From contig CAIWXX010000180.1 in NCBI GenBank assembly GCA_903916735.1, forward strand, positions 1 to 64,000: 64,000 bases of DNA, given 5' to 3'. The notes under the pieces are model-generated. The model saw only the letters and a program-made list of their open reading frames with translations, made no database searches and was not told where the DNA came from. Below, in pieces: positions 1,937 to 58,314 of this stretch. Position 1 is the stretch's first letter. Each line of letters opens with the position of its first letter. A program made the translations under genes and the position numbers. This stretch comes from an uncultured Acidobacteriota bacterium (GTDB lineage: Bacteria > Acidobacteriota > CAIWXX01).

Positions 1937-1939
1937 TTT

Positions 1940-3323: not shown

Positions 3324-3376
3324 GCACGCCGCTTTGCGATGCATTATCCATCTTTTTTTCAAGGAGAAGGAACCCC

Positions 3377-10019: not shown

Positions 10020-10048
10020 TCCTTTTCGACTAATCATGGGAGGTAGCA

Positions 10049-11958: not shown

Positions 11959-11976
11959 AACTGGAAGGAACGGACC

Positions 11977-12690: not shown

Positions 12691-12707
12691 ACGTGTGAGA
12701 AATTAAT

Positions 12708-13253: not shown

Positions 13254-13262
13254 GAGTCAGTC

Positions 13263-14705: not shown

Positions 14706-14717
14706 AAGGATTTGCGG

Positions 14718-15212: not shown

Positions 15213-15221
15213 GGAGGAATC

Positions 15222-36830: not shown

Positions 36831-39752
36831 ATGCTAATTCCATCTCGATTGATCGATCTGAAGAACTGCCTAATTCCAGGCTTGTTTCTTCTTGCCTACG
36901 CAATTATTTCTCCCCTCAGCGCATCAGACGAATCGGCTCAACCCGGCTCCTCTCCCGAGGAACTCCAGCATCTGTTCGCCGCGGAATGCTCGTCCGGTCA
37001 GGCCAGTCCACAAGGGTCGAAGGCAACGCCAGTTGAGCTGGAAGTTGCTCGTTCCGGGGATTCCTCTGTTAAGCAGCTGAGTGAGGTTCTGAGGAACAGC
37101 CCGGATGAGTGTCTTCGTTGTGCCGCAGCACGGGCCTTGCGAGAAATCGGCCGCGCATCATCTGCTGCTATCCCTGATCTGATCGCGGCGACAAAGGATC
37201 CCAGTCCCGTCGTCCGCCTGCAAGCCGCTCGAAGCCTTGCAAAAATCGACCCAATGTCCATTCCTGCAGCCGTCGATGTGATGACCGCGGGCCTCAAGAA
37301 TGAGAGCCCGGCCGAGCGAGTGCTCGCGGCGCAAGCACTCGGAGAAATCGGCCATGCCGCTGCCGCCGCGATACCTGCTTTGAAAGAAGCCACACACGAT
37401 ACGGACACGATCGTACAATCTGCCGCCACCACTGCCCTGGCGAAATGCGCCGCTCCTGTCACACAGAAGAAGGATCAGATCTTCCTCATGGGCATCGGGA
37501 TGCTCAGGCTGAACTGGGCCAGGGTCCATGGCAACGAAATCAGATTCCGATACAGCGACCTCGGGCTGCCCGCCGAGTTTTCGACAAGAGAACGCGCCTC
37601 GTTCGTACTCGATGGCACTTTGGGCCACGGGGCATATGACCTGGACGGGCACATCGACTATGACCCGGAAAACCGCATCACCGAACCTCCTCTGGATTTT
37701 CTGGTCACAGTTGGTAACAAGCGTGAGTACGCGTCGGTCGGTGATTTCAGGATGGGCGTCTACCTCGATTCCGTTTTTTCCCAGTATTACCATCCCTTTC
37801 GCGGGGCAATCCTGGGGAAACGATGGGATACATTCGGGGCCGAGGTCCTGGGTGGAATGGCCAGGGGCGAATCGGGTATTGATGAACTGCCCGCGGATGC
37901 CGGCGCGGGCCCGTACTACATCAAGGACTCGCCGATACTCAGAGGAAGTGAGATCGTTTTCCTAGTCACGAGAAGCGCACTCAATCCCAGCCAGGAAATC
38001 AGCCGGAGACAGGTGTCCAGAAATACCGACTATTTCTTCGATTATGATCGCGGTGAAATTCTTTTCAATTACCCCATATACTCGCAGGACGAACGTGGGA
38101 ATCCCATTTCCATCCTGGTGTCGTATCAGTTCGAATCGCTGGCTGGTAGATTCACACGGTATGTGCTCGGATTTCGCACCTTCGTGTCTCCGGCTAAATA
38201 TCTGAAAGCCAGCTTTACATACATTGCCGACGCCGACAGCACGTTATCCTTCGATGAGGCCTTTAAAAACCGGCGCGGCATCTCCACCCTTGGCCTCAAT
38301 ATCGACACCACGCGGTTGAATTTCGTCGGTGAGTACTCATCCAGCGCCGAGCCCTCGATCGCGAGACAGAACGGCCTCTTTGGCGCCGGCAGGTTCTCTT
38401 TCAAAGATTCACTGAAACTCTATGTCAACTCCTGGAATGTCGACACCGACTTTTCCACATTTGCCAATCAACAACTTCAATACGGCTTCAACCTCTATCA
38501 GGTATTCCCCTACTACTCGGAGAGGAACATCTTTATTTCGCCATTTCAGTTTTCGAGAAATCTCGGCTCCGACCTCTATCCTTTTACGCAATCTCGAGTC
38601 GTCGTCGATCAGAAAGAAGTCAACAGCTTTCTCGAGTGGGATCGCGGGCAGACGAGGTTCAGTGGCGGATATGGGTTCACTCGAGAACTCTCGACCGACA
38701 CCGGGCTCGACACCGCCTACTTCTCGGTCTTCCGCAACGATGTCGCCACGAAATACTGGGGCAAGTTCCAATTCGACTCCGGGTCGGATCCTATGAGAGA
38801 CATTCAGGATGCGCGAGAAAAGGAGGTGCTTCTTGGAGTTCGGCAGCGCCTCTGGAAGCGGACGAGCGGCGATCTGTTTCTGCAAGCCGATTACAACCTC
38901 GACCAATACGATAACCTGCTGAGCGGCAGCTCAAACACGCGGGCGCAGACGTTTTCACTCTCCACCGAGTATCTGATCGGGCAGGAAGGATACTTCGCCG
39001 GGTACAGGAAAGAGCTGGTGACGGACACGGACACCAGTCGATCGCTTGCCGACAATGACATCCTGGAAGCCGGCGTCAAACACCATCTCTACAAAGGCAT
39101 TTTCATTGACAGCCGAATCAGGGATGAATCCAATACCCAGGGCGATGTGACGTCCGATGCCCAGATCATTTCAATCGGTGGCGGATATGAAGGAAAGTCA
39201 TTCAGAGGAATCGGACGATACGAAATCCAGTTGAACAAGTCGGAGGGGGCCGAGGGGCGGCGGAGGCTCTGGTCCGTCTATCTCTTTGGGTCCCCTGTCA
39301 AGGAGATGGACTTGAGCCTCAGGTACTATAAGCAAGCCGGTCGCAACGAAGCTCCGACTTCACTCACGGAAACCGCCGAAGAAGAGTTGAATTTCCGGCT
39401 ACTGTGGAGAATCACGCGGAAATATTCGGTCTATTCTCAATGGCGCTATGATACGAACGTCGAAGTTTATCCGCCACTCAACAGAACGAAAAGCAATTCG
39501 GTTGCATCGGTACAGGGTGTGAGTCTGAAGTTCACACGCAAGCTGGATTTCCTCGCTAACTATAAGCTCATCAAAGTATACGGCCCGATCGACAACCGCA
39601 AAGAATCCGGTACGGCTGAGCTCGGGTATCTCGTCTTCACGCATTTCAGGTTCGGTGTCGGCGCCGAAATCATCGACTACAGGGATCAGCAGGATCCGAC
39701 TCAGAACTACAAATCCAAGGTTGGTTATTTCAAGTTCGTGGCGCTTTTCTAG
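36831..39752 (+). CDS. HEAT-repeat protein with large beta-barrel-like C-terminal region (outer membrane)
   Basis: The 973-aa protein has a signal peptide ending near PLSASDE. Residues of about 75-205 hold three or four HEAT/PBS-like repeats (CAAARALREIGRASSAAIPDL, VVRLQAARSLAKID, RVLAAQALGEIGHAAAAAIP). From about residue 220 the sequence is made of alternating, Tyr- and Phe-rich beta strands (YHPFRGAILGKRWDTFGAEV, FRLLWRITRKYSVYSQWRYD) and ends in VGYFKFVALF. A terminal Phe is the usual signal for BAM-dependent insertion. I read it as an outer-membrane barrel with a periplasmic helical adaptor. No named family was recognised. Two large secreted proteins follow directly, so it may help export or anchor them. 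Confidence 0.8.
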   Translation: MLIPSRLIDLKNCLIPGLFLLAYAIISPLSASDESAQPGSSPEELQHLFAAECSSGQASPQGSKATPVELEVARSGDSSVKQLSEVLRNSPDECLRCAAARALREIGRASSAAIPDLIAATKDPSPVVRLQAARSLAKIDPMSIPAAVDVMTAGLKNESPAERVLAAQALGEIGHAAAAAIPALKEATHDTDTIVQSAATTALAKCAAPVTQKKDQIFLMGIGMLRLNWARVHGNEIRFRYSDLGLPAEFSTRERASFVLDGTLGHGAYDLDGHIDYDPENRITEPPLDFLVTVGNKREYASVGDFRMGVYLDSVFSQYYHPFRGAILGKRWDTFGAEVLGGMARGESGIDELPADAGAGPYYIKDSPILRGSEIVFLVTRSALNPSQEISRRQVSRNTDYFFDYDRGEILFNYPIYSQDERGNPISILVSYQFESLAGRFTRYVLGFRTFVSPAKYLKASFTYIADADSTLSFDEAFKNRRGISTLGLNIDTTRLNFVGEYSSSAEPSIARQNGLFGAGRFSFKDSLKLYVNSWNVDTDFSTFANQQLQYGFNLYQVFPYYSERNIFISPFQFSRNLGSDLYPFTQSRVVVDQKEVNSFLEWDRGQTRFSGGYGFTRELSTDTGLDTAYFSVFRNDVATKYWGKFQFDSGSDPMRDIQDAREKEVLLGVRQRLWKRTSGDLFLQADYNLDQYDNLLSGSSNTRAQTFSLSTEYLIGQEGYFAGYRKELVTDTDTSRSLADNDILEAGVKHHLYKGIFIDSRIRDESNTQGDVTSDAQIISIGGGYEGKSFRGIGRYEIQLNKSEGAEGRRRLWSVYLFGSPVKEMDLSLRYYKQAGRNEAPTSLTETAEEELNFRLLWRITRKYSVYSQWRYDTNVEVYPPLNRTKSNSVASVQGVSLKFTRKLDFLANYKLIKVYGPIDNRKESGTAELGYLVFTHFRFGVGAEIIDYRDQQDPTQNYKSKVGYFKFVALF

Positions 39753-39823
39753 GCAAAATGCCGCACAGGTTTCATCATAAAGAATTGATTGGCGACTCAG
39801 GCGGCCCCTTTCGGAGGAAAATC

Positions 39824-42800
39824 ATGATCAACAAGAAGAGGAGAGCGTTTTCGGTCGCACTCCTGGCAGCGAGTATTCTGGCGACATCACCATCGTCATT
39901 CGGCAAGACGGCGGTGAGTGAGACTCTGTGCTACACGGAGAGAGTCACCGACGCTCCATCTTATAATATTTATACTGGGCGCAATGACCCTAACAATCCC
40001 ATCGTGTGGTCCCACACCGTGCCCCCGGGCATCCTCAAATCCGTTATCCGTGTCGGGCTCTTTATCGAAGCATACGATGTGGATTACCCGGCCAACGATG
40101 AACATGACCGTGTTTTCATCAACGGCTACGACCTCGGATTGCTCGAAGGCTTCAACAACGAATGGGGCACGGTCGAGAAAACCGTACCGCCGGAAGTCAT
40201 GCGCGAAGGGATCAATGATCTCCGCATCGTTGTGGACGAACTCGATAAGGGATGGAAGGTGACGATCCGCGCCAGCGAGATCAGATTTTATTGTTCCAGT
40301 GCCGAACCCGATTTTTCAATCGGCGTGACGCCGACAAGCCTGTCGGTTCCACAAGGCGGCACGACATCGTACACAGTGACCCTCACCTCCTTGAACCAAT
40401 TCAGTTCTCCCGTCTCTCTCACTGTCACCGGCCTCCCCGACGGCGCCACCAGCCAGTTCGCGACAAATCCGTTGACTCCCAGCGGCGAGTGCGCTCTCCG
40501 CATCGACACATCTCCGACCACTCCGTTCGGGACGTATCCACTGACAGTGACCGGCACGGGAGGCGAAAAGAGCCATTCGGCCGATGTCACTCTTGTCGTG
40601 ACAGCCGGTGCCGACTTCACAATCGACGCTGATCCGCCGAGTCGCACGGTTTCTCAGGGAGGAGATGCGACCTACACGATATCTTTAAAGGCGAAAAATG
40701 GGTTTGAGTCGCCGGTCGATTTGAGTGTGGAAAATCTACCTCAAGGGGCGACAGCCGCCTTTGATCCGAATCCGAAAGTGCCGACAGGCGAGTCCAAGAT
40801 GACGGTATCGACGTCGGATACCACGCCGACCGGCACCTATTCCGTGACGGTCAAGGGCATCGGTGGCGGGAAGACACAATCCTGCCAGGTCACGCTTGTC
40901 GTCTCCAGCGCACCTGATTACACGATCCAGGCAACGCCCCCCGAGAAAACAGTCATTGCCGGTGATTCAGCCACATATTCCGTGAATCTCACCGCTCTGA
41001 ATGGATTCTCGTCGCCGGTGAACCTGAACGTCGCAGGGCTTCCGGATGGAGCACATGGCCAATTTTCAAAGAATCCCATAACCCCGTCAGGCCAGGTCGA
41101 TCTTGAAATCATGACATCCGATAACACTCCGCCCGGGATCTACTCATTGACGATCGCGGGAGACAGCGGCAGGAAACACCATGCTGCAACCGTCAATCTG
41201 GTTGTGTCACCGAAACCGGATTTCGAAATCAGCGCCTCGCCGAGTAGCAGCGTCATCGCACCCTCCGAGGTCACGACGTTCATCATCAATCTGAAATCGA
41301 TCAACGGGTTCAAACAACCCGTACAACTGTCGGCAACAGGACTTCCACCAGGCGCCGGCGGAGAATTCAAGATGAATCCCGTCACGCCATCGGGTCAAAC
41401 AACCCTGGAGGTGGCGACGACGGCCGCAACGCCAACCGGCACCTACTCGATCACGATCTCGGGCGAGGGCGCCGGCATGACTCACTCGACGACTGTTTCG
41501 CTCATCATCGTCGTTCGCCCGGATTTCTCGATCATTGCGACGCCTCCAACCCAGACGGCTACATTCGGTACTCCGGTCGTATACACAATCCAACTCCTTC
41601 CCGTCAACGGGTTCAAGGAGATGGTCGAGCTTTCCGTGGCAGGGCTGCCCAAAGGCGCCGTCGCCGAGTTCGACCGGAGAAAATTCACCCCTCCAGGCAA
41701 AACGCCGCTCAATGTGACTGTGCCGGCCGAAACTACGCCTGGTGAATACCCGATCACAATCACCGGGGTTGGTGGAAGCAAAACGCGGACAGCCGTCGTC
41801 GAACTGGTTGTTCCGCAGGACATCTGCCCGCCGTTTTCAGTGCAGATCTCGGCAACACCCGACTCCGGGCAGGCGCCTCTTGCCGTGCAACTGAAAGCGA
41901 CGATCACGGAGGAATTCCAATACAACGGCGCATACTCATACATCTGGGATTTCGGTGACGGACAGATATCGACCGACACTCAGCCGGTTCATACCTACGA
42001 ACGATCCGGTGTCTTCACCATTCACGTGAAAGTCACGAATGCGTGCGGCGATGAAAAGCAGGCGGAAAAACAAATTGCCGTGGAATCGTTCACCGGTTCG
42101 ATTCGGAAGGCCTTCTCGCCAGGTGAAGCTTCACCAGGCGAAACCGTGACGATGTCCCTTTCATTTCAGAGTGATTCGACATCCGAATTCCAGGACGTGT
42201 CGGTGCGAGACGAACTTCCCGCATCTCTGATTTACGTCGGCGATACTGCGCCGGTCAAGCCGCGTTTTGAAGGGAAGAGGATCATATGGCTGTTCCCGCA
42301 GATCCGGAAAAAGCAGCGGGTGCAGTTCGACGTCACGCTCCGCATATCAGACAGAGCAACTCCCGGCCGGATAACGAACATCGCCTACCTGGACCATGAA
42401 AGTCTGAAGCGCCCGATCTCATCGAATACCGCCGTCATGAAGGTCAGAGGCATCCAGGTGATGCTTGTGAAAAGTGTGGACAAGGTAACGGCCAAAGCAT
42501 CAGATGAAATCCACTATCAGATCCGACTTCAGAATACATCGAACATTCCGTTAACGGATGTTATCATCAGGGACGAGCTCTCAGCGTATTTGGAATTCAT
42601 CTCCCAGGAGAGCGCTCTCTCGTTCTCAAAAGAGGGCTCGACTCTCCTGTGGAAAGGTCATGCCGATCCGGGCGCGGAAACACTCATCGCCTTCACTGCG
42701 CGAATCACCAACATCGCTTTGTCGGGCACATCGGTGACAAACACCGCATCGCTCACGGCCAGAGAGCTCGCCAAGAAGATGAACTCGAATATGGTGACAA

Positions 42801-43822
42801 CGGTTCTGCAATCGGAACCGATCCCATTGACAAAAGTCTCCTTCAGGAAGAGATCCGAAGTTCCACAGGTCGAAGTGGGCAGGATGGTCCGGTTCAGGCT
42901 GGAGATCGACAACCGCTCGGATTCGGCGCTTCTATCGCCCATCATCGAGGATGACCTCCCGCAAGGGTTCTCCTACGTGGCAGCATCAACGCTGCTGAAC
43001 ACATCGGCCTTCAACGATCCCGACGGCAAGGGAACTCTCTTCTGGCATCTCCCCAACATCCCACCTCGACAGATCACGACCTTGAGCTATCAGGTCGTCA
43101 TCGATGCGGACGCAAGGCGCGGCAAGAATGTGAATAGGGCGGTTCTCAGAACCAGGGATGTTTCGGGACAGAATGTGATGCTCGAAGCTTCCGAGTTCAT
43201 CAACGTCTCTTCATCCGGCTTTACTTTCTACAGCGGAGTTGAAGGATATGTTTTCCTGGATCGCAACAAGGATGAATATTTCTCCACCGGAGACACACCG
43301 ATCGAAGGCGTCGAAGTGAAGATCTCGTCAGGTGAGAGCCTCGTCACCGATACGAATGGATACTTCAAAGAAGAGGGAATGAACCCCGGTGACTATGCCG
43401 TCGGCGTCAACACCACCACGCTGGCACAAAACCTCCGGCCTTCCAATTCGCCGATGGCCGTCAACCTGCCGGACGGCTTTACTGAGCGAGTGGATTTCCC
43501 TGTCAGGTTCCGCGTGGCCGATGATGAAATGAGCCGCGTGGAAGGCAGAGTGTTTTACGATAAAAATGGCGATGGCGCATATGGTCCTGGTGATCCGCTG
43601 GCTGCCGATTTTCAAGCGCGGCTCGACGGCACGATGCAAACTGCCGGTGCCGCCGGGCGATTCGTCTTCACCGATCTCACTCCGGGAAACCACACAATTG
43701 AAATCATCTACACAGGCAAGACAATGAAAAAAGAAGTGGTCCTCACCCCCGGACAGACCACTATCGACATACCACTGAAATTTTCAGGCATCATCATTAC
43801 CATATCTGGAGAAGTGAAATGA
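39824..43822 (+). CDS. Secreted multidomain protein: five 101-aa Ig-like repeats, PKD, DUF11-like and SdrD-B-like domains
   Basis: The ATG at 39824 lies behind GGAGG, giving 1332 aa with a signal peptide (RRAFSVALLAASILATSPSSFG). A beta-rich domain (about 35-160) leads into five Ig-like repeats starting at residues 162, 263, 364, 465 and 566, each exactly 101 residues (P-D-F/Y-x-I start, NGFxxPVxLSVxGLPxGA core, GTYxxTIxG end). A PKD domain (IWDFGDGQISTDTQPVHTY) follows at about 667-755. Three DUF11-like segments run from 756 to about 1135, and two SdrD-B-like domains with Ca-type loops (FLDRNKDEYFSTGD, FYDKNGDGAYGPGD) close it. It is 71 bases after the barrel gene and overlaps the next gene by ATGA. 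It is probably a surface fibre or adhesin-like component. Confidence 0.9.
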   Translation: MINKKRRAFSVALLAASILATSPSSFGKTAVSETLCYTERVTDAPSYNIYTGRNDPNNPIVWSHTVPPGILKSVIRVGLFIEAYDVDYPANDEHDRVFINGYDLGLLEGFNNEWGTVEKTVPPEVMREGINDLRIVVDELDKGWKVTIRASEIRFYCSSAEPDFSIGVTPTSLSVPQGGTTSYTVTLTSLNQFSSPVSLTVTGLPDGATSQFATNPLTPSGECALRIDTSPTTPFGTYPLTVTGTGGEKSHSADVTLVVTAGADFTIDADPPSRTVSQGGDATYTISLKAKNGFESPVDLSVENLPQGATAAFDPNPKVPTGESKMTVSTSDTTPTGTYSVTVKGIGGGKTQSCQVTLVVSSAPDYTIQATPPEKTVIAGDSATYSVNLTALNGFSSPVNLNVAGLPDGAHGQFSKNPITPSGQVDLEIMTSDNTPPGIYSLTIAGDSGRKHHAATVNLVVSPKPDFEISASPSSSVIAPSEVTTFIINLKSINGFKQPVQLSATGLPPGAGGEFKMNPVTPSGQTTLEVATTAATPTGTYSITISGEGAGMTHSTTVSLIIVVRPDFSIIATPPTQTATFGTPVVYTIQLLPVNGFKEMVELSVAGLPKGAVAEFDRRKFTPPGKTPLNVTVPAETTPGEYPITITGVGGSKTRTAVVELVVPQDICPPFSVQISATPDSGQAPLAVQLKATITEEFQYNGAYSYIWDFGDGQISTDTQPVHTYERSGVFTIHVKVTNACGDEKQAEKQIAVESFTGSIRKAFSPGEASPGETVTMSLSFQSDSTSEFQDVSVRDELPASLIYVGDTAPVKPRFEGKRIIWLFPQIRKKQRVQFDVTLRISDRATPGRITNIAYLDHESLKRPISSNTAVMKVRGIQVMLVKSVDKVTAKASDEIHYQIRLQNTSNIPLTDVIIRDELSAYLEFISQESALSFSKEGSTLLWKGHADPGAETLIAFTARITNIALSGTSVTNTASLTARELAKKMNSNMVTTVLQSEPIPLTKVSFRKRSEVPQVEVGRMVRFRLEIDNRSDSALLSPIIEDDLPQGFSYVAASTLLNTSAFNDPDGKGTLFWHLPNIPPRQITTLSYQVVIDADARRGKNVNRAVLRTRDVSGQNVMLEASEFINVSSSGFTFYSGVEGYVFLDRNKDEYFSTGDTPIEGVEVKISSGESLVTDTNGYFKEEGMNPGDYAVGVNTTTLAQNLRPSNSPMAVNLPDGFTERVDFPVRFRVADDEMSRVEGRVFYDKNGDGAYGPGDPLAADFQARLDGTMQTAGAAGRFVFTDLTPGNHTIEIIYTGKTMKKEVVLTPGQTTIDIPLKFSGIIITISGEVK
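40307..41821 (+). repeat. Five tandem coding repeats of 303 bp
   Basis: Units begin at 40307, 40610, 40913, 41216 and 41519. The period is exact, with no indels between units, although the DNA sequences have diverged clearly. This suggests old duplications held at constant length. Confidence 0.85.
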
Positions 43823-46800: not shown

Positions 46801-49800
46801 GCGCCATTGCTGGTCAATACCAATGTGGTCATTACGCCCATCAATATCTGCACAAGCCCATCGGCAACGGTTACACTCCGAAATGCCGGGCAAACCACCT
46901 GTTACAATCTGCAGATCACCGAGACTCTTCCGACGGGTTTGACCTTTGCATTGGCAAGTACGCGGTGGCGGTTGAATGGCGGTGGATGGAACGGGCCCAA
47001 TGCATCCTATAATCCCAATCCGACTGTGTCCCCTATTCGCTGGACGAAAACTGAGATTTCGGCACTGTCCAGTGTTAACCCGGGTGATACGATCGAGATC
47101 GAATTCTGGCTAAGCGCCACTTGCCCATTCAACGGCGGGCAGGTGACCGTATCGACGCAATACGAGAATCCTTGCGGTCAGGTCTTCACCAATGCCGACA
47201 GCGCCTTCGCCGTAACGCTGCAAGCCCCCGTCATCAGCGTGACGAAGACGCGAGTCAATCAGCCCATCGGCTGCAGCGAGAGCGTCACATGGACAATCAC
47301 CGTGACGAACTCCAGCGCCTATGCTCTGCCGGTCCTCTGGATTGAGGATACACTCGGCGGAGCCTTCACATTTTTTTCATCGACAGGTGATCCAACCTAC
47401 GGTCCGGCTGACAACGGCTATCATGATTCCGGTGCGCCGCAAGTTGTGCAATGGGAAATCAAGAATCTTCCCGTTGGAGCCCACGCGGATCTGACCGTGA
47501 CGGCAACGACGGATAGCAGCCCTTCTTGTAATAGCAACCTCGACGACACTGTCAATGTCTGGTGGGGATGCGGAGACACGGACGGCCTGTCATCCACCAA
47601 GCCACCGCTCAATACTCCAGGGTGTGCCAGCTGCTGCCTCGCCACGGCAACGGTCACAACAACACGGACGGAGACACGAGAACCGGAGGTGGGATTCCTG
47701 AATGTTAATATCAATCCGACGTCCATCAGCTCATGCGACGACCACACCGAGCTCACGCTCACCATCAACAACACAGGCCCGACGGATGCCAGCGATGTCG
47801 ATCTGGTCGTTACGCTGCCGCCTGGCTTGTCCTACATCACAAACTCGACATCGCTATCGTGTACGAGCGCAGCGCCGGCGCCGGCGGGCAACCCAGCCAT
47901 AACAGGCGGCGGCCTAACACTGACTTTTTACGACATCGGCAGCAAAGCCAGCAATCTCTGCGACACACTCCAAGCCGCCGGCAAGAGCGATACAATCACG
48001 CTGGTGTTCTCGGTTCGATCAAATTGCTACCCAACCAGCGACATTGGATTCAGGTTGTATTACTACGACTGCTGCGGTGATACGCAATACGACACAACAA
48101 GCAGCCAAACGATCACATCACAATATCCAAACCTGTCGATCACCAAGGTGCCCACCACCTCACAAGTGGCCTGTTCCGCTCAACAGTCTTGGACGATCAC
48201 TGTCACGAACAACGGCACGGGCAATGCTGAGGTTGTTCGTATCGAGGACACACTCGGCAATTGGATCGACTACGTGAGTACGAACCCAGCAGCTACTATG
48301 CTCGGCGGCGATCTTCAGCGTTATGGCTGGGAGATCAACAATCTCGGTCCTTCCAGCTCTGTCGTCTTCACAATCACGGGCACACTCAATCCGGACAGCT
48401 TTCCTAACCAAGCGGATTGCACGGCGGCACTCCGCCAGAACAATGCGCGCGCCATCTGGGGATGCGGAAGCAACAGTGCTGCGACAGACGGAAATCCCAA
48501 CACGATGGCGTATGATTGCACCTACGGTACATGGGCCAACGCTTCGGTTGCAACACTGCAAATGCCCGACTTGATTGTACAGACCATCACGCCCAGCATC
48601 ACATGCACTGCCGATGGTTCATTCAGTGGATCCATCTCGGTGACAGTGCGCAACCAGGGTGACGGGACAGCCTCAGGCGGTTTCACAGTATCCATTGTTG
48701 ACGGGCATGGCTGGACCGGCACGGGTACCTACAGCAGCGACCTTGGAGCGGGTTCATCGACCGTCATTACGATCAATGTAGCCACCTGGGCGCCCAGTTG
48801 TACGCACTGCACGTACAACTTCACGGCGACTGTCGACAGCACGGCTGCCGTCTGCGAGTGTAACGAAAGCAACAATACGGGCACGCTGGACTACACACCG
48901 ACGATCCCCGACATTGTCGTCGACAGCGAGAATCTGACAATCGGATGCAGCGGCAACGCCGACGGTCAGGTCCTCATTTCCGGAACCGTCAAACTGCGGA
49001 ACAGCGGCTGTGGGAACGCGCTGACGACGAACGTGCCGATGCGATTCACGCTGCACGGAGCCGGCAGCTGCGGCGGAAGCGTGATCGGCGTGCCGTGGGC
49101 TCAGAATTTCACGGGTGTGAATATCGCTCCCGGTACCACACAAACATTCACAATCACGAACCACACGATCACGACGAACATATGCACCGGCTCCACCGGG
49201 TGCACAGCATCGATCTTTATCGAAGCGGATTACAACAACAGCATTTGCGAGTGCAATGGTGACAACAACACACTCTGCTCGAGCGACAAAACCATCTCGA
49301 TCCCCGATATCGTCGTCGACGCCGATACGTTCGCGGTCGCCTGCCTGAGCGACGGCAACGTGCAGACGACGGGAACATTCACTCTGCGCAACGACGGATG
49401 TGGCATCCTGAACGTTAACGTGCCGGTGCGCTTCCGGATGTACAGCGCGTCAGGCTGCGGCGGAAGCCAGCTCGATCAATGGACACAGACATTCGCCGCT
49501 AATATCAATCCAGGCTCATCTCAGGTATTCACAATCACGGCACGCAACCATACGCAGAACCTCTGCACAAGCTCGACCGGCTGTGTCATCTCGTTCCAGA
49601 TCACTCCCGATTACGGAGGCACGATCTGCGAATGCAGCTCAACCAGCAACGCCTACTGCTCGGCAAACAAGTCAGTCAGCATTCCGGACATCCAGGTGAG
49701 CAACGACACGCTCGGAGTCAGCTGTGTCTCCGACGGCCATGTGCGGGTCTCCGGCACCGTCACGCTCCAGAACAGCGGATGCGGCTCGGACCTAACCGCC

Positions 49801-52800
49801 AGTGTTCCGGTCCGCTTCACCGTCTTCGGCAACTCAGACTGCACCGGAACGCAGATCGCGCAATGGACTGAAACATTCACAGGAGTCGGTATCGCGGCGG
49901 GCGGCGGAACGCAGTCCTTCACGATCAGCAACAATGACATCACGACGAATATGTGCAGCGGATCCACGAGCTGCCAGTTCTCGATCCGGATCGAAGCCGA
50001 CTATGACTCTCAAATTTGCGAATGCAGCTCCATCAACAACACACGATGCTCGAACAAGACTCTCAGCATCCCCGATCTCACGATCTCCTCGGTCACGCCC
50101 TTGTACACCTGCTCATCCGACGGCAGCGTGACGGGATCGGTCACAGTCAACGTTGCGAACAGCGGCTGCGCGGCTGTCATGGAAGCGGTCGTCCGACTCA
50201 CATCAAGTTGCGGATATACCTTCTCGGATCAGAAGGTGGACCTGAGCGCCGGAGGAAACAGCAATCTGACCTTCAACTTCACTCCTCTGCAGTCAATTTG
50301 TTCATGCACTTTCACAGCGACAGTCGATCCGGATTCGGCCATCTGCGAGTGCAACGGCACGAACAACAGTCTCCCCTCAGTCTACAACGCTCAACTGCCG
50401 GAGATAGAAGCTGTGAGTGAAACCCTGGCAGTTGCCTGCGCCGCGGACGGCCAGGGACAGGTGACAGGCAGTGTCACGCTCAGGAATTCCGGCTGCGGCA
50501 CATTGACGACCAGCATTCCGATGCAGTTCACCATGTACAACGCACCGGGATGCAGCGGCGGCCAGGTCACACAATGGACACAGACATTCACCGGTGTCAG
50601 CATTGCAGCGGGAGCGACGCAGGTATTCAATATCACCGCGCATACTTTCACGGCCAACCTCTGCACGAGCTCCACAAGCTGTCAGGTCTCGATTCAGACA
50701 ATCGCCGATTACAACGGCTCGATCTGTGAGTGGAACGGCGGCAGCCATCAGCTCTGCAATACAAAAACGATAGCGATTCCCGATCTCGCAGTCACCGCCG
50801 TGACACCGTCGGTTGTCTGCAACTCCGACGGCAACCTTACCGGCACGGTCTCGGTCGTCGTCGCAAATACCGGATGCACCGACGTCAGCGGCGCAGTCGT
50901 ACGCCTGACATCCGATTGCGGTTACACCTTCTCGGATCAGACCGTTAACCTCGCCCACGGCGACAGCACAACTCTCACCTTCAATTTCACGCCCGACAAG
51001 ACGCGCTGCACGTGCACGTTCACAGCCACGATCGATCCTGATCATGCGATCTGCGAATGCAGCGGCACGAACAACAGCGGGTCGGCAGGGCCATATACCA
51101 TTCAGGTTCCTGATATCCAAGTATCGGGCCAGAACGTGACTCTCACGGCCTCCGCCAATGGGCAGGTACTCCTCTCCGGCACAGTCACACTCGCCAACAG
51201 CGGTTGCGGAAACGCTCTCACAACCGACATTCCGATACGATTCACCCTTTTCAACACAGCCGGTTGCACCGGCACTCAGATCGATCAGTGGACGGAGAAT
51301 TTCTCCAGCGTCAATCTTTCACCGGGCGGGACACAGATTTTCACCATAACGAATCACCTCATCAACACCAATATGTGTACAGCCGCGGCAGCCTGCCAGG
51401 TCTCATTACGGATCGAAGCCGACTACAACAATTCGATTTGCGAATTTTCGGGCGGCAACAACACTCTGTGCGCCGACAAGTCAGTCGATGTTCCGGATAT
51501 CACCGTGCCGAATGACACACTCACCGTCAGTTGCACGAGCGACGGCCATGCTCGCATTTCCGGCGCGGTCGCACTTAGCAACATCGGATGTGGTTCGCCT
51601 CTCACGACGGATGTCCACATGCGATTCACGGTATACGACCACGCCGGATGCACGGGGAACCAGATCGCCGAGTGGACTCAGACATTCACCGGCGTGAACA
51701 TCGGCATCAACAATTCACAGTCATTCACAATCGCGCCGTTTGACACGACCATCAACTTCTGTGCCAACTCGACGGGCTGTCAGGTTTCGATTTTGATCAC
51801 CGCCAACGACGGCGACATCATCCACGAGTGCAGCGGCGGGAACAACACTCGTTGCACCGACAAACCGATCAGCATTCCTGACCTGGCGATAACAAGCGTC
51901 ACGCCTGCGGCGACATGTATTTCAACCGGCAATGTGACCGGCACCGTCATTGTCATTGTTGCCAACAACGGTTGTGCCGCCGTCACGGGCGCCGTCGTAC
52001 GACTGATATCCGATATCGGCTATACGTTCAGCGACCAGACGGTCAATCTCGCGGCCGGCGCCACTGCAACCCTCACGTTCACCTTCATACCTGATACGTC
52101 ACGATGCACCGGCAATTTCACAGCCACAATCGATCCTGATGATGCCGTTTGCGAATGCACCGCCAATAACAACTCGATGCAAGTCGCCTATACGAATCTG
52201 ATCCCCGATTTGAGTATTACCGGATTCCAAGTCACTTGCATGTCGGACGGCCAATACAGCGTGGCAGTCACAATCGATAATAACGGCTGCGGATCGGCGA
52301 CCAGCATTCCGATCCGCCTGGTCGACAACGACGGCCATACGCAGACTCTGATCATCCCATCGATGGCCGGCCATTCACAGATGGTGGTTACGTTCGCGCC
52401 GTGGCCATCCGATGGTATCCCGCCGACTCTGAATTTCATCGTGACAATCGATCCGTTGGGGACGGTCTGCCAGCTCACGAATACAGACAAAACATACACG
52501 ACCGATTACACGCGGCCCGATCTGAAGTTGACACAGATAAGCCCTGAATGCATCTCCAAAGGACACTACCGCGTGACTTTCCTCGTGGAAAATGTCGGTT
52601 CCGAGGTTGTGAATCTGCCATTTTACATGCGCCTCTCAGACAATGACGGTCATGTATCGGATGTGCTGTTTACATCGATCGGAGGCCACTTGCCGTTTGG
52701 CCCTGGCACCAGCCAAACCATCATCTTCGACAATTGGATCGTGGATTGCGATCCGAGCATCGTTGTCTTCACCGGGCTCGTCGATTCGCATCTGGAAATC

Positions 52801-55800
52801 TGCGACGGTAACCTGCCGAATAACACGAATACCGCCTCTCTGTCGATCATCGACCTCGTGACAGCGGCCGTCTCGCCGACGACATCGTGCAGCGCCGATG
52901 GTGCCATCTCCGGCACAATCGGCGTCACGATCACAAACCATGGCGGAGCACCCTGGCCGAACGATTTCTCCATCAGCGTGACGGATGGCATGGGTTGGAG
53001 CTCCGAGCTCCGATACTCGGCCGACCTCGGCGGCACTCTGCCGATCGCAGCCGGCGCATCGGTCACCGTGAGCATCCCATGGACACGGCAGTTCACAACG
53101 ACACCCTATATCTGCGATTATCCGACGATCACCGTAACAGCGGATTCGCACGGCGAAGTCTGCGAATGCAGCGACGCAAACAACACGCTCACCGGTTCCT
53201 GCCATATGCCCTACCCGGATCTGGTCCCACAGACTATGGCTGCCACATGCGCGTCGGACGGAGTCTTAAGCCTGGCGCTGACGGTGATCAACCAGGGATG
53301 CGCCGATGTCACATCCGACTTCAACATCCTCATCACCGACTCGGCGAAGCTATCCCGCACATACTCATTTACATCGATCGGCGGCAAGCTTCCGCTGCTG
53401 GTCAATGTGCCGCAAACAATCTCGGTGAACAACTGGGCCTACACTTGCGGCTCATCGAGACTCGATTTCACTGTGTCCCTGGATACAGGTGCCACCGTAT
53501 GCGAGATGTCCGGGAGCAACAACTCGCTCTCGTGGATCTACAACCTCGACGAACCGAATCTTCTCATCGGCGACACAACATGGAACTGCTCCGCTGACGG
53601 CACCATCACCTTCAACGTGGCCATAGTCAATAACGGCTATGGGACTGCAACGGGCGTCACATTCAGCGCTTTCGACGAAAAGGGCCTCGTCTATTCACAA
53701 CCTGTCACGGTGAAGGCCGGCGGCACAACGATCGTCACCTTCACAGCCGGCCCATACGCGGGCAATGTCGAACACACGTTCCGGTTCACGATCGAAACCG
53801 CGAACAAGGCATGCGAGTGCAGCGGTGCACAGCACGAGGGCTCGATCAAGACGAAATGCTCCGCTCAGCCCCCGGCGCTCGTCACCGAAAAAACCTCATC
53901 AACCTCCCGCGCGAACGCCTGCGGGGAAATTGAGTTCACACTACGCATCCAAAACGTCGGTGCCGGTGATGCGCTCAATGTGACCGTCACGGACATTCTC
54001 CCGAACGGCTTCACTTACGTGCGCGGGTCGACTGTCGCCACATGGCCGAGTGGACGCTACACCTCTGACCCGGCCATCTCAGGTCAGACACTGGTCTGGA
54101 AAACAGGCGCCAGGCTGGTCGGCGGCATTCCCGTCGGTGAAACACTGATCCTCAAATTCCGAGCTCACGCGGGTTCGTGCAAAAACGGCGGAGGAAAGCT
54201 GACCAACCAAATGGAGGCGACAGCGGTCGACGCCTCCGGCAAGCCGATTCCAAAGAAGACAACGGATCCGGATGATGACGACATCGACGATGCCTCCTCC
54301 ATCGATATCACACTGGCATGCCCGCATCTGAAGACGGAACGAACCTGCCCCTCCATCACACAGATCAGCGCGGGTGGCGTCCTGGAATATACAATCACCA
54401 TCGCCAACGACGGTGATCCCGAATCCGAGCTGACGCAAGCGATTGTGCGAGACGATCTCCCAGCCGGCTGGAAACTGGTTTCATTTACCAGCGACGGCGG
54501 CACACCCGTGACCGCGCCGACACCTGGAAGCACCGGCAACCTCGTCTGGAATTACGGCGATGTGAAAATCGTCCCAGGATCCCCCATCAAGCTGACAGTA
54601 CGAATCCAGCCCGATCAATCCACATGCGGCACGACATTCCGTGACACTGTACGCGTCACAGCCCAGGATGATTGCCATGAGACGAACTATGCCGGTGATC
54701 CGCAACAATGCCCGGTGAATGTCGTCTGCGGAGAGCCGCTTCTGGAGCTCGAAAAAATCTGCCCGACTGCTCAGCAGCCCGGCGGGATCTATCGGTACGA
54801 AGTCATCGTCAGAAACCGCGGCAATTCCGACATACGGAATGTGATGATCAAGGATGAGCTGCCGAGCCCATTTGATTACGTTCCGGGCTCATCCGCCCTC
54901 GATGGGCGGCAGATCGAAGACCCGGCCATCACCGGCCGGCTCCTCGTCTGGAGCCTCGGCACTCTGCACGGCAAAACCGAAATGCACCTCATCTATACAG
55001 CCATCGTCCCGGCCGATGCCGAACCGGGCCGGTACTGCAACGGAGCATGGGTCGAAGGAGCAGATGAGAGCGGCGCACAGATCAAGACGGATCGCCGGGA
55101 ATGTTGCGTCATCACGAGAAGAGGAAATGCGCAGTGCTGCCTCAGAGCCGACGAGAACGTGCTGGGCTTCTTCCAGGAACCCGAACAGTATATTTCGTTC
55201 ATCGATCCGTACTTCCGGACGGAAGCGGCCATGTTCACATGCTACGCATCACTTGATATGTGGCAGCGCACCAAGACCGAAATAGAAACCCCAGCGCATT
55301 TCTACAAGGAGCGCCTCAAGAACTACGCGCTGGCGACGATCGAGGAATTCTATTTGCGCTCGAAGCTCGGCATGACCCTCGACGACGGCAGCCTGCTGCT
55401 ATCACGCGGCGGCGCTCGCCCTGAAAAAGGCGACAACGGCTGGACGGATTCACGTACTGACAAAACCATGACTGTATCGCAGATGGCATTCGAACTGCTG
55501 GCCCTCAACAGAGCCGTACAAAGTGAAGACAAGCCGGATTTGCAAGCAAAACTCCGCCGGCTGATTGAAGAAAGGATCCGATTCCTGCAGCCTGTATCGC
55601 AAGAGCTTCCACACTCCTGGACCGTTGAAAAGAACAAGGCCGACAAGGGCGATGGAAAAGCCACACTCGACGATCTGGCTGCGCTCAATCTGGCACTGAC
55701 CGAATTGGAGAAAGCCGGCTACACTGGCGCTCGCCCGATCAAGCAGGATCTACAGAAAGGCCTTGAGCCGCTCAACACCAACACGATCGACAAGGACAAG

Positions 55801-58314
55801 CTCGTCGAAGAACTCTATTACGCGCTGGCTCTGATTGAAGCAGGAGATACGGAACATGCCACTGCCAAAATGAAGCAATTCAGTTCGATGTATAACGGCG
55901 GAGAAATCAAATTCGATCATCTGTATCCATTGGCCCTCGCATCATATGTTGATTTCCGAGCCGGCGGCACATCATCGGAGAAGCTTTTTGACGAGTTGAA
56001 AAAGCGGTTCTCATCGCAGGACACGAACATCTTCGCCGAACAGCAGACGGATTTCACGTACAAGGTTGATCTGCGCGATTCAGGCGCCGTCATCCTCGCC
56101 TTCGAACCGAGACTCGTCCCGCAGCAGGAGTTCGCCACGAGCACCCTGTACCGGATGTTCGACGAAACCGGGATGTTTCTGCAGGAAAAAGACCTGATCG
56201 CCGGCAGCTCTCCGCTGCTCATGCTCCGCAACTATCCACTCTCCGACCAGATGCTGCCGATTCTGTCGATCGAGAAGGGCGGGAAGAATATCGCGGCGGT
56301 CTTCACTGAAGACGCCTTGGTGCGATCGCCAAGGTCTCCCCAGGCCGAAGAAGACGTCTTCCCCAACTCCTTCTCCAAGGTTCTCTCACCGGGGTATGAA
56401 CAAACGACGTCGGGCATTGCGACGCTGTCATATCAGGCACAGTACTTGGGCCGGCAACTCATGTTGCACCCCGATCGCACGGTGCAGGAATCCGGGCGGA
56501 GCCTCGACGAGTTTGGAAAGCGATATGCCGTGGCGATGCTCGACAGCGGCGCCGGGAACCTGATGAACGAAACCACTGTAGTCCCGTCTGCCGCGGTTGC
56601 AGATAAGGGTATCAAAGAAGGCGAATTCAACCTGCAATCCATCCGAGGCACAGCTTTGTATCGCGCCGCGGATCTGGCCGACTACCTGGTTGCAGAAAAG
56701 CTCTATCTTGACGGCCATGGCCGCAGATCGGAGGACATGCGCCGGACGTTGGAGCTCCAGCGGAGGATCGTCGCGAAGTTCAAGGAGATCGGCTATGTGC
56801 CGGATCAATTCAGCCTCTACATCAGCTCCGACGGCAAGGACATCACACTTCTTCCATCAAAGGAAAAAGCCGAGAAAGTGACATCCGCGAAACTGCTCTT
56901 CGCTCTCGATGACGATTTCCTGAAACAGTCGATGGAAACACAAACCACGGTGCTCACGCCAAAGGATCTGTTCTTCCTCTCGATGGCGCCCGAGGCGTCG
57001 CGATATTTCGAAAAGGAAATTAAGAAATTCGAAGAGGAGAAGAAGACGAGCCTGGAGGCGCTCTCGGCCGCAGTTCTCTCGCGTCGGCTCATTCGCCAAA
57101 ATGATCTGGAAGCGACCAAGGCACTTCTCGACAAGTGGGATGACGAGATTGCGTTGCCGCGAACCGATCGAAATCGCGAAATGGATACGGCCATGATTCT
57201 CAATTACGAACCGCAGGACATCTTCCTTTACCTGCTGGCAACGCAGGGAAGAGACGAATTCAAGTTCAAGCGAACCTTGAGCATCTTCGGTTCCTTGCTG
57301 GAAAGCGAATGGGGCCTCAGATGGGACGGCGCCTATGCCATGCTGCCGCCGTCGGAATTCTGGGTCATCAGGGAATCTCAAAAACAGTCGCCGGAACCGG
57401 GGGATATCCTCACAATGAATGTCCGTGTCGAAAATCGCTGCCCATTGGCGGCAGCGGGTTCGGGGGATATTCCGAGCGTGCTCATCAGAGCGTCATTCGA
57501 TCCACGCCTGATTTACGCAGGCACAAACCGAAACGATGATGTGCAGGTGCTCCGCGACTTCACATGGGCAAAGAAGGACTTGTTCGAAGGAGGTTTGCTC
57601 GAATTCACCTATCATGCGCTGGTGCCCAGGGAATTCATGGATAACTTCATCGACGGCCGACTGACGGTCAATGGCTATACCGGGTACGAAGCCTTCGGCC
57701 CTGAAAGCGCAGCCGGCGTTTGGTGCGATGCCGTGGCGGATCTGAGAAGAGTGCCGATCACACCGCTGGCGAGAATGAAGGGCGTTGTTTTCTTGGATGA
57801 GAATCTCAACGGCGTGCGAGACCCGGGTGAAAAAGGGATTCCAGGAATACTTCTGAAAGACAGCCAGGGGAGGCTTTGCCGAAGCGATGCCGAAGGCGTT
57901 TTCTTCATCGATACAGGCAGCGAAAAACTGGGAGTTCAGATCGAGCTTAAATCGGTGCCCGCGCGATTTGTCCTGACAACCGATACGACTCGTCTGGTGG
58001 ACCGGAATATCACAGGCGAGATTTCGTTCGGACTGGTCGAGTGCGTGCGAGTCGAAGGGTTCGTTTATGAGGACCTGGACTCCGACGGTAAATTGACGAA
58101 AGGCGAGCCGACCGTTGAAGGAGTTATTGTCAAGGCAGTCGAAAAGGAAGTGACCTCCTCGGCCAACGGTCGCTTCATCTTCAGGAACCTGCCGATCCAG
58201 TGGCGTGACCGGATCGGAGTCGGCGATCAGCAGCCGTTCATCAAACAGCCAAGCGGCAACCTCAAGATCCACATCACGGCAGTGACGGCAATGGGCGAGG
58301 CTGGAGGGAAATGA
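43819..58314 (+). CDS. Giant 4831-aa secreted protein with DUF11-like, CARDB and SdrD-B-like repeats
   Basis: The ATG overlaps the previous stop (ATGA). A signal peptide with a long n-region ends near HLMAQ (residue 47). Residues of about 50-1580 are DUF11-like units (YTITILNNSGNPLTNLVI and many others). About 1583-3340 holds some 15 CARDB repeats, each with a Cys-SDG start, a NSGCG turn and a CECxxxNN end. About 3350-3770 has three more DUF11-like units. About 3775-4520 is mainly helical and charged (GWTDSRTDKTMTVSQMAFEL, EIKKFEEEKKTSLEAL) and matches no family I know. A beta domain follows, then two SdrD-B-like domains at about 4652 and 4742 (FLDENLNGVRDPGEKGIPG, YEDLDSDGKLTKGEPTVEG). The many cysteines suggest disulfides in an extracytoplasmic setting. 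No LPxTG, autotransporter or T9SS-type tail is evident. Confidence 0.92.
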   Translation: MSNRKVASSDYPIANCRPFTAITANKAFRILITVVLFIMAGAHLMAQTPGVTGSNQINKCETKTYTITILNNSGNPLTNLVIANNISLLTGFSYVNGSASIWVNSNPAFCTANPSIGGSVLTWNINTLCSTTFTLNNGETLSISFDLQTDCSAVSGSMNVHFTYDIGSTPSYDDTAFSIQVLPGGVTIKKTPNVIPQEVGQNITWTLTIENTGLGTIKNVFVTDVLGSGLQYVSSSPSGTNAGQTTTWDSSPSQVPEFASMDPGDIVTIDITALVIACTGLDNTADVRWGCDAGHICFDTANDGGTATASVQHIVKTPNTSFTPPNITFTYCNNTSANSLTITNIGDGTAHDFKLHVDFSPLTVVASSVLYNAGGYFEIPDIAAGGHYDLTFTLQYTTWCGGSDIAKSLVWIPQYKDDCGNDFYPPVEVSTINSVAGRPSLSVSKTGASEVIQIGDQVTYNITSSYSGDTSCGSGNAGEVTVVDTLPDGFTVLDADGGTWVPGTGGTGGTVTWTYTPPATLTKTLILQSPLMSDCEMYCHTTFTNTVNATGLDCCGCTLNANASETSAIQCQELATVDKTATPSTIERCTDVLYANTYTFATTANVNLNDLVFEDLANNSQQSVPSSLSVIFDGVDITGSVVVTDTTPGGVLHLDFSGCSAISVNNKVLVISYEMTITTATAAACADSGFLSWSSMQVGPGGGSNCLAGGIIYQAVPVSVEAPAMSVDISGLPRIVDKCKTQTVTITLTQTSTTANPRDARLVLSGLNYYVVNPSATVCGGTVSPVSCTPTLVGNDYVWTFDDRFAGAGQTTTLQLSVQKRCTGTGDLVATAYFDDKCNDDATPNDTCSTSDTDTPAMLLSADLLIEKTPEVYYAATNSIQWKVYVTNRGTGTAYNVWVDDVLGSGLAYDTLNPATVNDMTGVTVTANQNHGGGAINGANIAIALMLAGERREITFNALLVSCTNLTNDATTSWGCVSVDCQTPISDNSTVEIPAPLLVNTNVVITPINICTSPSATVTLRNAGQTTCYNLQITETLPTGLTFALASTRWRLNGGGWNGPNASYNPNPTVSPIRWTKTEISALSSVNPGDTIEIEFWLSATCPFNGGQVTVSTQYENPCGQVFTNADSAFAVTLQAPVISVTKTRVNQPIGCSESVTWTITVTNSSAYALPVLWIEDTLGGAFTFFSSTGDPTYGPADNGYHDSGAPQVVQWEIKNLPVGAHADLTVTATTDSSPSCNSNLDDTVNVWWGCGDTDGLSSTKPPLNTPGCASCCLATATVTTTRTETREPEVGFLNVNINPTSISSCDDHTELTLTINNTGPTDASDVDLVVTLPPGLSYITNSTSLSCTSAAPAPAGNPAITGGGLTLTFYDIGSKASNLCDTLQAAGKSDTITLVFSVRSNCYPTSDIGFRLYYYDCCGDTQYDTTSSQTITSQYPNLSITKVPTTSQVACSAQQSWTITVTNNGTGNAEVVRIEDTLGNWIDYVSTNPAATMLGGDLQRYGWEINNLGPSSSVVFTITGTLNPDSFPNQADCTAALRQNNARAIWGCGSNSAATDGNPNTMAYDCTYGTWANASVATLQMPDLIVQTITPSITCTADGSFSGSISVTVRNQGDGTASGGFTVSIVDGHGWTGTGTYSSDLGAGSSTVITINVATWAPSCTHCTYNFTATVDSTAAVCECNESNNTGTLDYTPTIPDIVVDSENLTIGCSGNADGQVLISGTVKLRNSGCGNALTTNVPMRFTLHGAGSCGGSVIGVPWAQNFTGVNIAPGTTQTFTITNHTITTNICTGSTGCTASIFIEADYNNSICECNGDNNTLCSSDKTISIPDIVVDADTFAVACLSDGNVQTTGTFTLRNDGCGILNVNVPVRFRMYSASGCGGSQLDQWTQTFAANINPGSSQVFTITARNHTQNLCTSSTGCVISFQITPDYGGTICECSSTSNAYCSANKSVSIPDIQVSNDTLGVSCVSDGHVRVSGTVTLQNSGCGSDLTASVPVRFTVFGNSDCTGTQIAQWTETFTGVGIAAGGGTQSFTISNNDITTNMCSGSTSCQFSIRIEADYDSQICECSSINNTRCSNKTLSIPDLTISSVTPLYTCSSDGSVTGSVTVNVANSGCAAVMEAVVRLTSSCGYTFSDQKVDLSAGGNSNLTFNFTPLQSICSCTFTATVDPDSAICECNGTNNSLPSVYNAQLPEIEAVSETLAVACAADGQGQVTGSVTLRNSGCGTLTTSIPMQFTMYNAPGCSGGQVTQWTQTFTGVSIAAGATQVFNITAHTFTANLCTSSTSCQVSIQTIADYNGSICEWNGGSHQLCNTKTIAIPDLAVTAVTPSVVCNSDGNLTGTVSVVVANTGCTDVSGAVVRLTSDCGYTFSDQTVNLAHGDSTTLTFNFTPDKTRCTCTFTATIDPDHAICECSGTNNSGSAGPYTIQVPDIQVSGQNVTLTASANGQVLLSGTVTLANSGCGNALTTDIPIRFTLFNTAGCTGTQIDQWTENFSSVNLSPGGTQIFTITNHLINTNMCTAAAACQVSLRIEADYNNSICEFSGGNNTLCADKSVDVPDITVPNDTLTVSCTSDGHARISGAVALSNIGCGSPLTTDVHMRFTVYDHAGCTGNQIAEWTQTFTGVNIGINNSQSFTIAPFDTTINFCANSTGCQVSILITANDGDIIHECSGGNNTRCTDKPISIPDLAITSVTPAATCISTGNVTGTVIVIVANNGCAAVTGAVVRLISDIGYTFSDQTVNLAAGATATLTFTFIPDTSRCTGNFTATIDPDDAVCECTANNNSMQVAYTNLIPDLSITGFQVTCMSDGQYSVAVTIDNNGCGSATSIPIRLVDNDGHTQTLIIPSMAGHSQMVVTFAPWPSDGIPPTLNFIVTIDPLGTVCQLTNTDKTYTTDYTRPDLKLTQISPECISKGHYRVTFLVENVGSEVVNLPFYMRLSDNDGHVSDVLFTSIGGHLPFGPGTSQTIIFDNWIVDCDPSIVVFTGLVDSHLEICDGNLPNNTNTASLSIIDLVTAAVSPTTSCSADGAISGTIGVTITNHGGAPWPNDFSISVTDGMGWSSELRYSADLGGTLPIAAGASVTVSIPWTRQFTTTPYICDYPTITVTADSHGEVCECSDANNTLTGSCHMPYPDLVPQTMAATCASDGVLSLALTVINQGCADVTSDFNILITDSAKLSRTYSFTSIGGKLPLLVNVPQTISVNNWAYTCGSSRLDFTVSLDTGATVCEMSGSNNSLSWIYNLDEPNLLIGDTTWNCSADGTITFNVAIVNNGYGTATGVTFSAFDEKGLVYSQPVTVKAGGTTIVTFTAGPYAGNVEHTFRFTIETANKACECSGAQHEGSIKTKCSAQPPALVTEKTSSTSRANACGEIEFTLRIQNVGAGDALNVTVTDILPNGFTYVRGSTVATWPSGRYTSDPAISGQTLVWKTGARLVGGIPVGETLILKFRAHAGSCKNGGGKLTNQMEATAVDASGKPIPKKTTDPDDDDIDDASSIDITLACPHLKTERTCPSITQISAGGVLEYTITIANDGDPESELTQAIVRDDLPAGWKLVSFTSDGGTPVTAPTPGSTGNLVWNYGDVKIVPGSPIKLTVRIQPDQSTCGTTFRDTVRVTAQDDCHETNYAGDPQQCPVNVVCGEPLLELEKICPTAQQPGGIYRYEVIVRNRGNSDIRNVMIKDELPSPFDYVPGSSALDGRQIEDPAITGRLLVWSLGTLHGKTEMHLIYTAIVPADAEPGRYCNGAWVEGADESGAQIKTDRRECCVITRRGNAQCCLRADENVLGFFQEPEQYISFIDPYFRTEAAMFTCYASLDMWQRTKTEIETPAHFYKERLKNYALATIEEFYLRSKLGMTLDDGSLLLSRGGARPEKGDNGWTDSRTDKTMTVSQMAFELLALNRAVQSEDKPDLQAKLRRLIEERIRFLQPVSQELPHSWTVEKNKADKGDGKATLDDLAALNLALTELEKAGYTGARPIKQDLQKGLEPLNTNTIDKDKLVEELYYALALIEAGDTEHATAKMKQFSSMYNGGEIKFDHLYPLALASYVDFRAGGTSSEKLFDELKKRFSSQDTNIFAEQQTDFTYKVDLRDSGAVILAFEPRLVPQQEFATSTLYRMFDETGMFLQEKDLIAGSSPLLMLRNYPLSDQMLPILSIEKGGKNIAAVFTEDALVRSPRSPQAEEDVFPNSFSKVLSPGYEQTTSGIATLSYQAQYLGRQLMLHPDRTVQESGRSLDEFGKRYAVAMLDSGAGNLMNETTVVPSAAVADKGIKEGEFNLQSIRGTALYRAADLADYLVAEKLYLDGHGRRSEDMRRTLELQRRIVAKFKEIGYVPDQFSLYISSDGKDITLLPSKEKAEKVTSAKLLFALDDDFLKQSMETQTTVLTPKDLFFLSMAPEASRYFEKEIKKFEEEKKTSLEALSAAVLSRRLIRQNDLEATKALLDKWDDEIALPRTDRNREMDTAMILNYEPQDIFLYLLATQGRDEFKFKRTLSIFGSLLESEWGLRWDGAYAMLPPSEFWVIRESQKQSPEPGDILTMNVRVENRCPLAAAGSGDIPSVLIRASFDPRLIYAGTNRNDDVQVLRDFTWAKKDLFEGGLLEFTYHALVPREFMDNFIDGRLTVNGYTGYEAFGPESAAGVWCDAVADLRRVPITPLARMKGVVFLDENLNGVRDPGEKGIPGILLKDSQGRLCRSDAEGVFFIDTGSEKLGVQIELKSVPARFVLTTDTTRLVDRNITGEISFGLVECVRVEGFVYEDLDSDGKLTKGEPTVEGVIVKAVEKEVTSSANGRFIFRNLPIQWRDRIGVGDQQPFIKQPSGNLKIHITAVTAMGEAGGK
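48565..53850 (+). repeat. Tandem array of about 15 CARDB-coding repeats
   Basis: Units begin near 48565, 48904, 49303, 49684, 50074, 50395, 50780, 51109, 51492, 51876, 52204, 52513, 52845, 53215 and 53548. Long units (about 127-133 codons) and short units (about 103-113 codons) alternate in blocks. The pair from 50395 to 51108 and the stretch from 51492 to 52203 look like a duplicated long-short module. Conserved words include ACxSDG, NSGCG, FTITxH and ICECxxxNN. Confidence 0.85.

Follow-up and report, generated by a model that had tools for sequence, protein, structure and literature searches.

We analyzed a window of 64,000 nucleotides from the genome of an uncultured Acidobacteriota bacterium (host genome G000, 5.37 Mb). 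Three genes occupy positions 36831-58314 of this window, all on the forward strand, and encode a predicted outer-membrane barrel (P0001) and two giant repeat proteins (P0002 and P0003). The locus is a divergent member of a widespread, unnamed and seemingly undescribed family, in which such barrels accompany large proteins carrying DUF11 and SdrD_B domains. Sequence comparisons give good support to the idea that the three genes form a real conserved unit and are functionally linked. The reading that we prefer, with a probability of around one half, is that P0001 is an outer-membrane port and/or anchor dedicated to the two giants, which would dock on it by their DUF11-SdrD_B tails and have their repeat arrays displayed at the cell surface.

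The barrel is present in a single copy in the host genome, and all 13 of the DUF11 matches in this genome fall within P0002 and P0003. An Acidobacteria metagenome-assembled genome (MAG) from groundwater, which belongs to the same family (G001, locus L070), encodes an equivalent set of 988, 1350, and 4277 amino acids (aa) with different flanks. The association thus goes beyond chance, because the genome has no other DUF11 gene and the set is kept in relatives where its surroundings differ. In G001, genes resembling type III CRISPR-Cas systems (judged by eye; L011, positions 1174-15397) lie just upstream of the locus. They are absent there in the window, which indicates that the gene set sits in different contexts.

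A scan of a genome collection with the single barrel protein returned no loci, and a scan with an alignment of four split-type barrels, i.e., barrels encoded apart from the giants, returned eight. These are labelled Candidatus Aminicenantes (five), Acidobacteria (one), Acidobacteriota (one), and Chrysiogenales (one). The Chrysiogenales label is probably wrong: the locus (L074, SPCN01000022.1) and its flanks closely resemble those of the Aminicenantes MAG QR_Bin.23 (L073). The order barrel, gene 2, gene 3 is kept in L070, L071, L073, and L077. It is the same in L074, where the contig piece stops before gene 3 and the C-terminal part of this gene is found elsewhere in the genome. The contig ends after gene 2 in L075 and L076, and after the barrel in L072. 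Hence, the functional link proposed in the original prediction is strengthened: the sole barrel of the genome adjoins its sole DUF11 genes, in an order shared by L070, L071, L073, L074, and L077. In the Aminicenantes MAG G239 (L077/L060), frameshifts or stops break up gene 2 (and gene 3) as well as the barrel gene, which may reflect decay or assembly error.

The orthologues of P0003 have frames of ~4280, ~4800, and ~5720 aa, and their C-terminal parts are ~40-46% identical to that of P0003, a value that falls to 29-34% for the two most divergent ones. When 297 genomes of the phylum were searched, the core of P0003 was found only in G000, G001, G239, and G279, which are exactly the carriers of the split-type barrel (Fisher test, 3e-9). 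Another 46 genomes of the phylum were discarded as carriers of P0003 homologues, as they match only the SdrD_B part, which is a shared domain. On another contig of the host genome (C175, ~11904-12018; L122), we observed a 115-bp remnant that shares 78% identity with the 3' end of the P0003 gene (window 58180-58294). It lies near an open reading frame (ORF) of an IS110-like transposase and is the trace of a second copy that has been lost.

The P0001 gene (36831-39752; 973 aa) encodes a signal peptide, HEAT repeats, and a large predicted C-terminal outer-membrane barrel. The P0002 gene (39824-43822; 1332 aa) encodes an N-terminal domain, five immunoglobulin (Ig)-like repeats, a PKD domain, three DUF11, and two SdrD_B-like domains. 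The P0003 gene (43819-58314; 4831 aa) encodes a DUF11 array, a CARDB array, further DUF11, a helical-looking core, a last DUF11-like domain, and two SdrD_B-like domains. The ATGA at 43819-43822 is common to genes 2 and 3, and their counterparts in G001 overlap in the same way. The ORF of gene 2 spans 39758-43822 (1354 aa). We preferred the start at ATG 39824, which is preceded by GGAGGA and leaves a gap of 71 bp to the P0001 gene, over the upstream ATG 39758, which lacks a Shine-Dalgarno sequence. Sec signal peptides are apparent at the N-termini of all three proteins, as judged by eye. Re-reading the ORFs thus reproduced the gene order, the 71-bp gap, the ATGA coupling, the signal peptides, and the terminal Phe of P0001 that had been described before. 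The single promoter proposed for the locus did not fare as well, since a promoter scan stayed within noise (4 hits vs 2.2 +/- 1.4 in shuffled sequences). The gene spacing supports an operon. No terminator-like site was found directly 3' of gene 3.

The barrel domain of P0001 (37470-39749, residues 214-973) has ~32 predicted strands, and no Pfam or NCBIfam family covers it. The terminal residue is Phe or Tyr in nine of nine aligned barrels, and Phe in P0001. The AlphaFold2 model of the whole protein shows the HEAT helices followed by ~32 strands, the seventh of which precedes a small beta insert (predicted local distance difference test, pLDDT, 63.7; predicted template modeling score, pTM, 0.47). 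Modeling the barrel alone gave a pLDDT of 60.8 and a pTM of 0.52. When both models were compared with the PDB using Foldseek, outer-membrane barrels (SlpA, LptD, MtrB, ushers, TonB receptors) made up nearly all of the best matches. Their TM-scores, at ~0.2-0.4, are too low to single out a relative. Searches of PDB sequences with three barrel profiles revealed no relative. With modest confidence, P0001 may thus be assigned a fold of the membrane barrel type, a point on which AlphaFold2 and Foldseek agree with the original prediction. The insert (37872-38150, residues ~348-440) carries the motif GSE..V...DYxxDYxxGxIxF...VxYE and belongs to the segment common to the fused and proteobacterial barrels described below. 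Its position seems plug-like, in a region modeled with low confidence. Between the window and G001, identity is 71-73% in the first barrel strands and insert, 60% in the remaining barrel, and 45% in the HEAT module.

This N-terminal module (37071-37460, residues ~81-210; HEAT_2 in Pfam, 1e-17) is exchangeable. In L071 and L072, the barrel orthologues have a bacterial SH3 domain (Pfam) in its place, and those of L073, L075, and L077 have a short, lipoprotein-like N-terminus (by eye). We could therefore not retain the combination of HEAT repeats and barrel, under which the locus had first been described, as a defining feature. The HEAT repeats were likewise rejected as a core part of the system, since apart from the window genome itself, only its relative of the same family has them.

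The two giants share their C-terminal architecture. Pfam identifies DUF11, PKD, CarboxypepD_reg, and SdrD_B in P0002, and DUF11 (1e-82), CARDB (4e-72), and SdrD_B in P0003, with the CARDB array at approximately 48556-53718. Both proteins end in a DUF11-SdrD_B module: two SdrD_B-like domains follow the last DUF11 of P0002 (43208-43819), and two more form the tail of P0003 (57754-58248). These SdrD_B tails are related to each other (E 1e-8). The conserved core of P0003 (55186-57318), ~710 aa long and apparently helical, is unique to the gene set, and we found no relative of it in Pfam or the PDB. When the C-terminal part of P0003 was compared with PDB sequences, only SdrD was matched, for the SdrD_B domains. 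P0003 has 157 Cys, which would fit an oxidizing compartment. If extended, the DUF11/CARDB arrays would be roughly 0.1 micrometer long. Proteins with DUF11 are a notable group among the huge bacterial proteins (PMC11573180).

The barrel is not restricted to the split-type loci. Its fusion to DUF11-SdrD_B in other lineages is absent from the original prediction, as are the shared end module of the two giants and the unique core of P0003. Using profile A1, we found the barrel in 27 of the 297 Acidobacteriota genomes, in most cases at the C-terminal end of one long ORF, behind as many as 28 DUF11 domains, usually a single SdrD_B, and a linker. In 24 of the 25 loci examined in the phylum, the barrel is either part of one protein with DUF11/SdrD_B or its immediate neighbor, the exception (L063) being cut by a contig end. 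The last DUF11 and first SdrD_B of P0002 align over ~205 aa with the module that directly precedes the barrel of the fused G058 protein (E 4e-18). As both domains are common, their shared order weighs more than this E-value. Twenty-four of the 27 barrel genomes have DUF11 (Fisher test, 1e-9). The converse does not hold, since 79 of the 103 genomes with DUF11 in this sample have no barrel. We also observed proteins of ~800 aa with the reverse order, in which two SdrD_B at the C-terminus come after a barrel-like part, in other genomes of the phylum (L094, L096, L098).

Outside the phylum, the barrel of L068 matches 23 plasmid records from alpha-, beta-, and gamma-proteobacteria and cyanobacteria. 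In 11 of the 12 plasmid loci examined, a DUF11 gene lies directly upstream of the barrel, most with an SdrD_B end and often with a 4-bp overlap. These giants include proteins of 4306 aa (Roseovarius) and 6458 aa (Sulfitobacter, from the record coordinates). All that is left in Paracoccus is a remnant of SdrD_B next to insertion sequences. An OmpA domain is present at the C-terminus of the giant in Croceibacterium and at the N-terminus of the barrel in Eleftheria and L068. P0001 itself has no tblastn match on plasmids, so that the link across phyla rests on profile comparisons through intermediates: with hhalign, P0001-type barrels match the fused and proteobacterial ones with probabilities of 96.8% (E 3e-10) and 94.4% (E 9e-8), the match being confined to residues ~290-520. 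Homology of the remaining strands is likely. In the phylogenetic tree, a long branch carries the barrel type of the window, which forms one clade (support 100/100). Several changes are required on this tree to account for the fused and upstream-split labels, so that fission or fusion occurred more than once. The conserved adjacency across phyla that had been proposed as a check is thus found in Acidobacteriota, Proteobacteria, and a cyanobacterium. Members of the family are annotated as hypothetical, OmpA family, or TonB-dependent receptor proteins, and we found no paper in the open-access literature that links DUF11 or SdrD_B to such a barrel.

The following scheme best explains these observations. 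All three proteins would cross the inner membrane by Sec. P0001 would insert in the outer membrane with its ~32 strands and plug-like insert, leaving the exchangeable N-terminal module in the periplasm. The C-terminal DUF11-SdrD_B tails of P0002 and P0003 would dock on it non-covalently; proteins of related lineages carry this tail in covalent fusion, directly before the barrel. The DUF11/CARDB arrays would then be passed through or held by the barrel and displayed outside the cell. The 24-strand usher passes Ig-like domains, and a barrel of the size of P0001 could in principle do so too. The length of the arrays argues for their location outside the cell. The docking, the passage, the surface display, and a possible fiber are inferred. 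Several points weigh against this scheme. The AlphaFold2 confidence is modest (pLDDT 61-64, pTM ~0.5), with TM-scores to solved barrels of at most ~0.4, and the P0001-type and other barrels match by profile across only ~160-210 residues. The OmpA domains at the SdrD_B/barrel junction of relatives suggest that this junction is periplasmic, in which case the arrays could stay in the periplasm. We propose only tentatively the wider reading of an unnamed secretion and anchoring system, in which giant DUF11-SdrD_B proteins would have their folded Ig-like arrays exported by a ~32-strand barrel with a plug-like insert. Such a system would occur in one-, two-, and three-gene forms in Acidobacteriota, Proteobacteria, and Cyanobacteria, the window holding the most elaborate one (two giants and a unique core).

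Other explanations must be weighed against a dedicated port and/or anchor. The barrel might be an anchor only, holding the tails at the outer membrane as SprF/PorP does for SprB, with another machine exporting the giants. The conserved tail of the giants is likewise C-terminal. Yet, P0002 and P0003 have no type A or type B C-terminal domain of the type IX secretion system (T9SS) in NCBIfam, a separate anchor would be superfluous for the fused relatives, and a search for SprA/Sov in 60 genomes of the phylum, including G000, gave no match, although its control gave none either. An anchor alone seems rather unlikely. We also regard as quite improbable that the giants remain periplasmic, as a scaffold by which the barrel would be tied to the inner membrane or the peptidoglycan. 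The OmpA-type domains at the end of the giant (Croceibacterium) or ahead of the barrel (Eleftheria, L068) and the SH3 domains of barrel orthologues would suit it, but arrays of at least 30 Ig-like domains (~0.1 micrometer) are far longer than the width of the periplasm, and their length varies freely among relatives.

The structural matches raise the question of an S-layer-like lattice, with P0001 as an SlpA-like structural barrel and the giants as an outer coat, given that SlpA/SDBC of Deinococcus are the top Foldseek matches of both models. The TM-scores of 0.27-0.37, the lack of any PDB chain matched by sequence, and the failure to find an SLH domain make this very unlikely. Finally, the barrel could be a transporter or polysaccharide porin co-transcribed with surface proteins by accident. 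Some family members are annotated as TonB-dependent receptors, one weakly matches EpsL, and no biochemical link is known. Such a coincidence is nevertheless extremely hard to reconcile with the fusions, the repeated splits, the recurrent adjacency across phyla, and the one-to-one co-occurrence.

Upstream of the locus, 511 bp before the barrel gene, the window encodes a secreted protein of 381 aa (P0004, 35174-36319, forward strand). This protein carries a metzincin-type zinc motif (HELGHDIGLRHGG) as well as a bacterial TSP3 repeat, and was not seen next to the G001 locus.

For the DUF11 proteins of several thousand residues that many Gram-negative bacteria place outside the cell, a barrel fused to such giants in some lineages and translationally coupled to them in others is a candidate port or anchor that can be tested directly. 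If the barrel is dedicated to them, annotations such as "TonB-dependent receptor" would have to be corrected.

None of the families of known secretion systems that we tested matched, as anticipated in the original prediction. In the nine barrel proteins, Pfam gave no match to the autotransporter barrel or POTRA/Omp85 (at E up to 5), the usher domain, the barrel and plug families of TonB-dependent receptors, or the DUF560 barrel of type XI secretion (Slam). The fused relatives resemble type V secretion in having a signal peptide, passenger repeats, and a C-terminal barrel in one chain, and the split forms have partner genes as in two-partner systems. However, the barrel, with its ~760 aa, is neither an autotransporter domain nor Omp85/POTRA, and in some relatives OmpA-like domains lie close to the junction. 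Chaperone-usher systems (FimD/PapC) also combine a large barrel, a beta insert after early strands, and Ig-like partners, and ushers are among the Foldseek matches, a similarity that reflects the general barrel type. In contrast, the window locus has no chaperone gene, and its partners are single giant chains instead of subunits. The T9SS translocon SprA/Sov is likewise a giant barrel, with 36 strands in SprA (PMC10994853), and 2 of 39 family members match it weakly in their insert segment (E 0.03). P0001 shows no such match, and we did not retain the barrel as a member of SprA. No other T9SS part was found.

The closest likeness in gene content is with uncharacterized DUF11-SdrD_B/barrel pairs such as WP_301261129 and WP_301261128 of Eleftheria terrae and WP_204360921 and WP_245447842 of Nitratireductor, in which the barrel shares the DYxxDYxxG insert segment and has a large DUF11 protein as its neighbor. 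They are annotated as an SdrD B-like or DUF11 protein with an OmpA family protein or TonB-dependent receptor. The large protein ends in DUF11-SdrD_B, often with a 4-bp overlap between the genes. These pairs differ from the window in that the giant gene is upstream instead of downstream and there is one giant instead of two. They also lack the HEAT repeats and the P0003-type core, and the homology covers the insert segment only. In its way of working, the system may be most like SprB-SprF of Flavobacterium, where a giant adhesin, a T9SS type B cargo, has a co-expressed PorP-like outer-membrane barrel that binds its C-terminal region (PMC9143113). The differences are that the giants of the window have no T9SS C-terminal domain, that no SprA was found in a search whose control stayed silent too, that the barrel is unrelated in sequence as far as tested, and that its family includes fused forms. 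What the two would share is a giant surface protein with a dedicated barrel.
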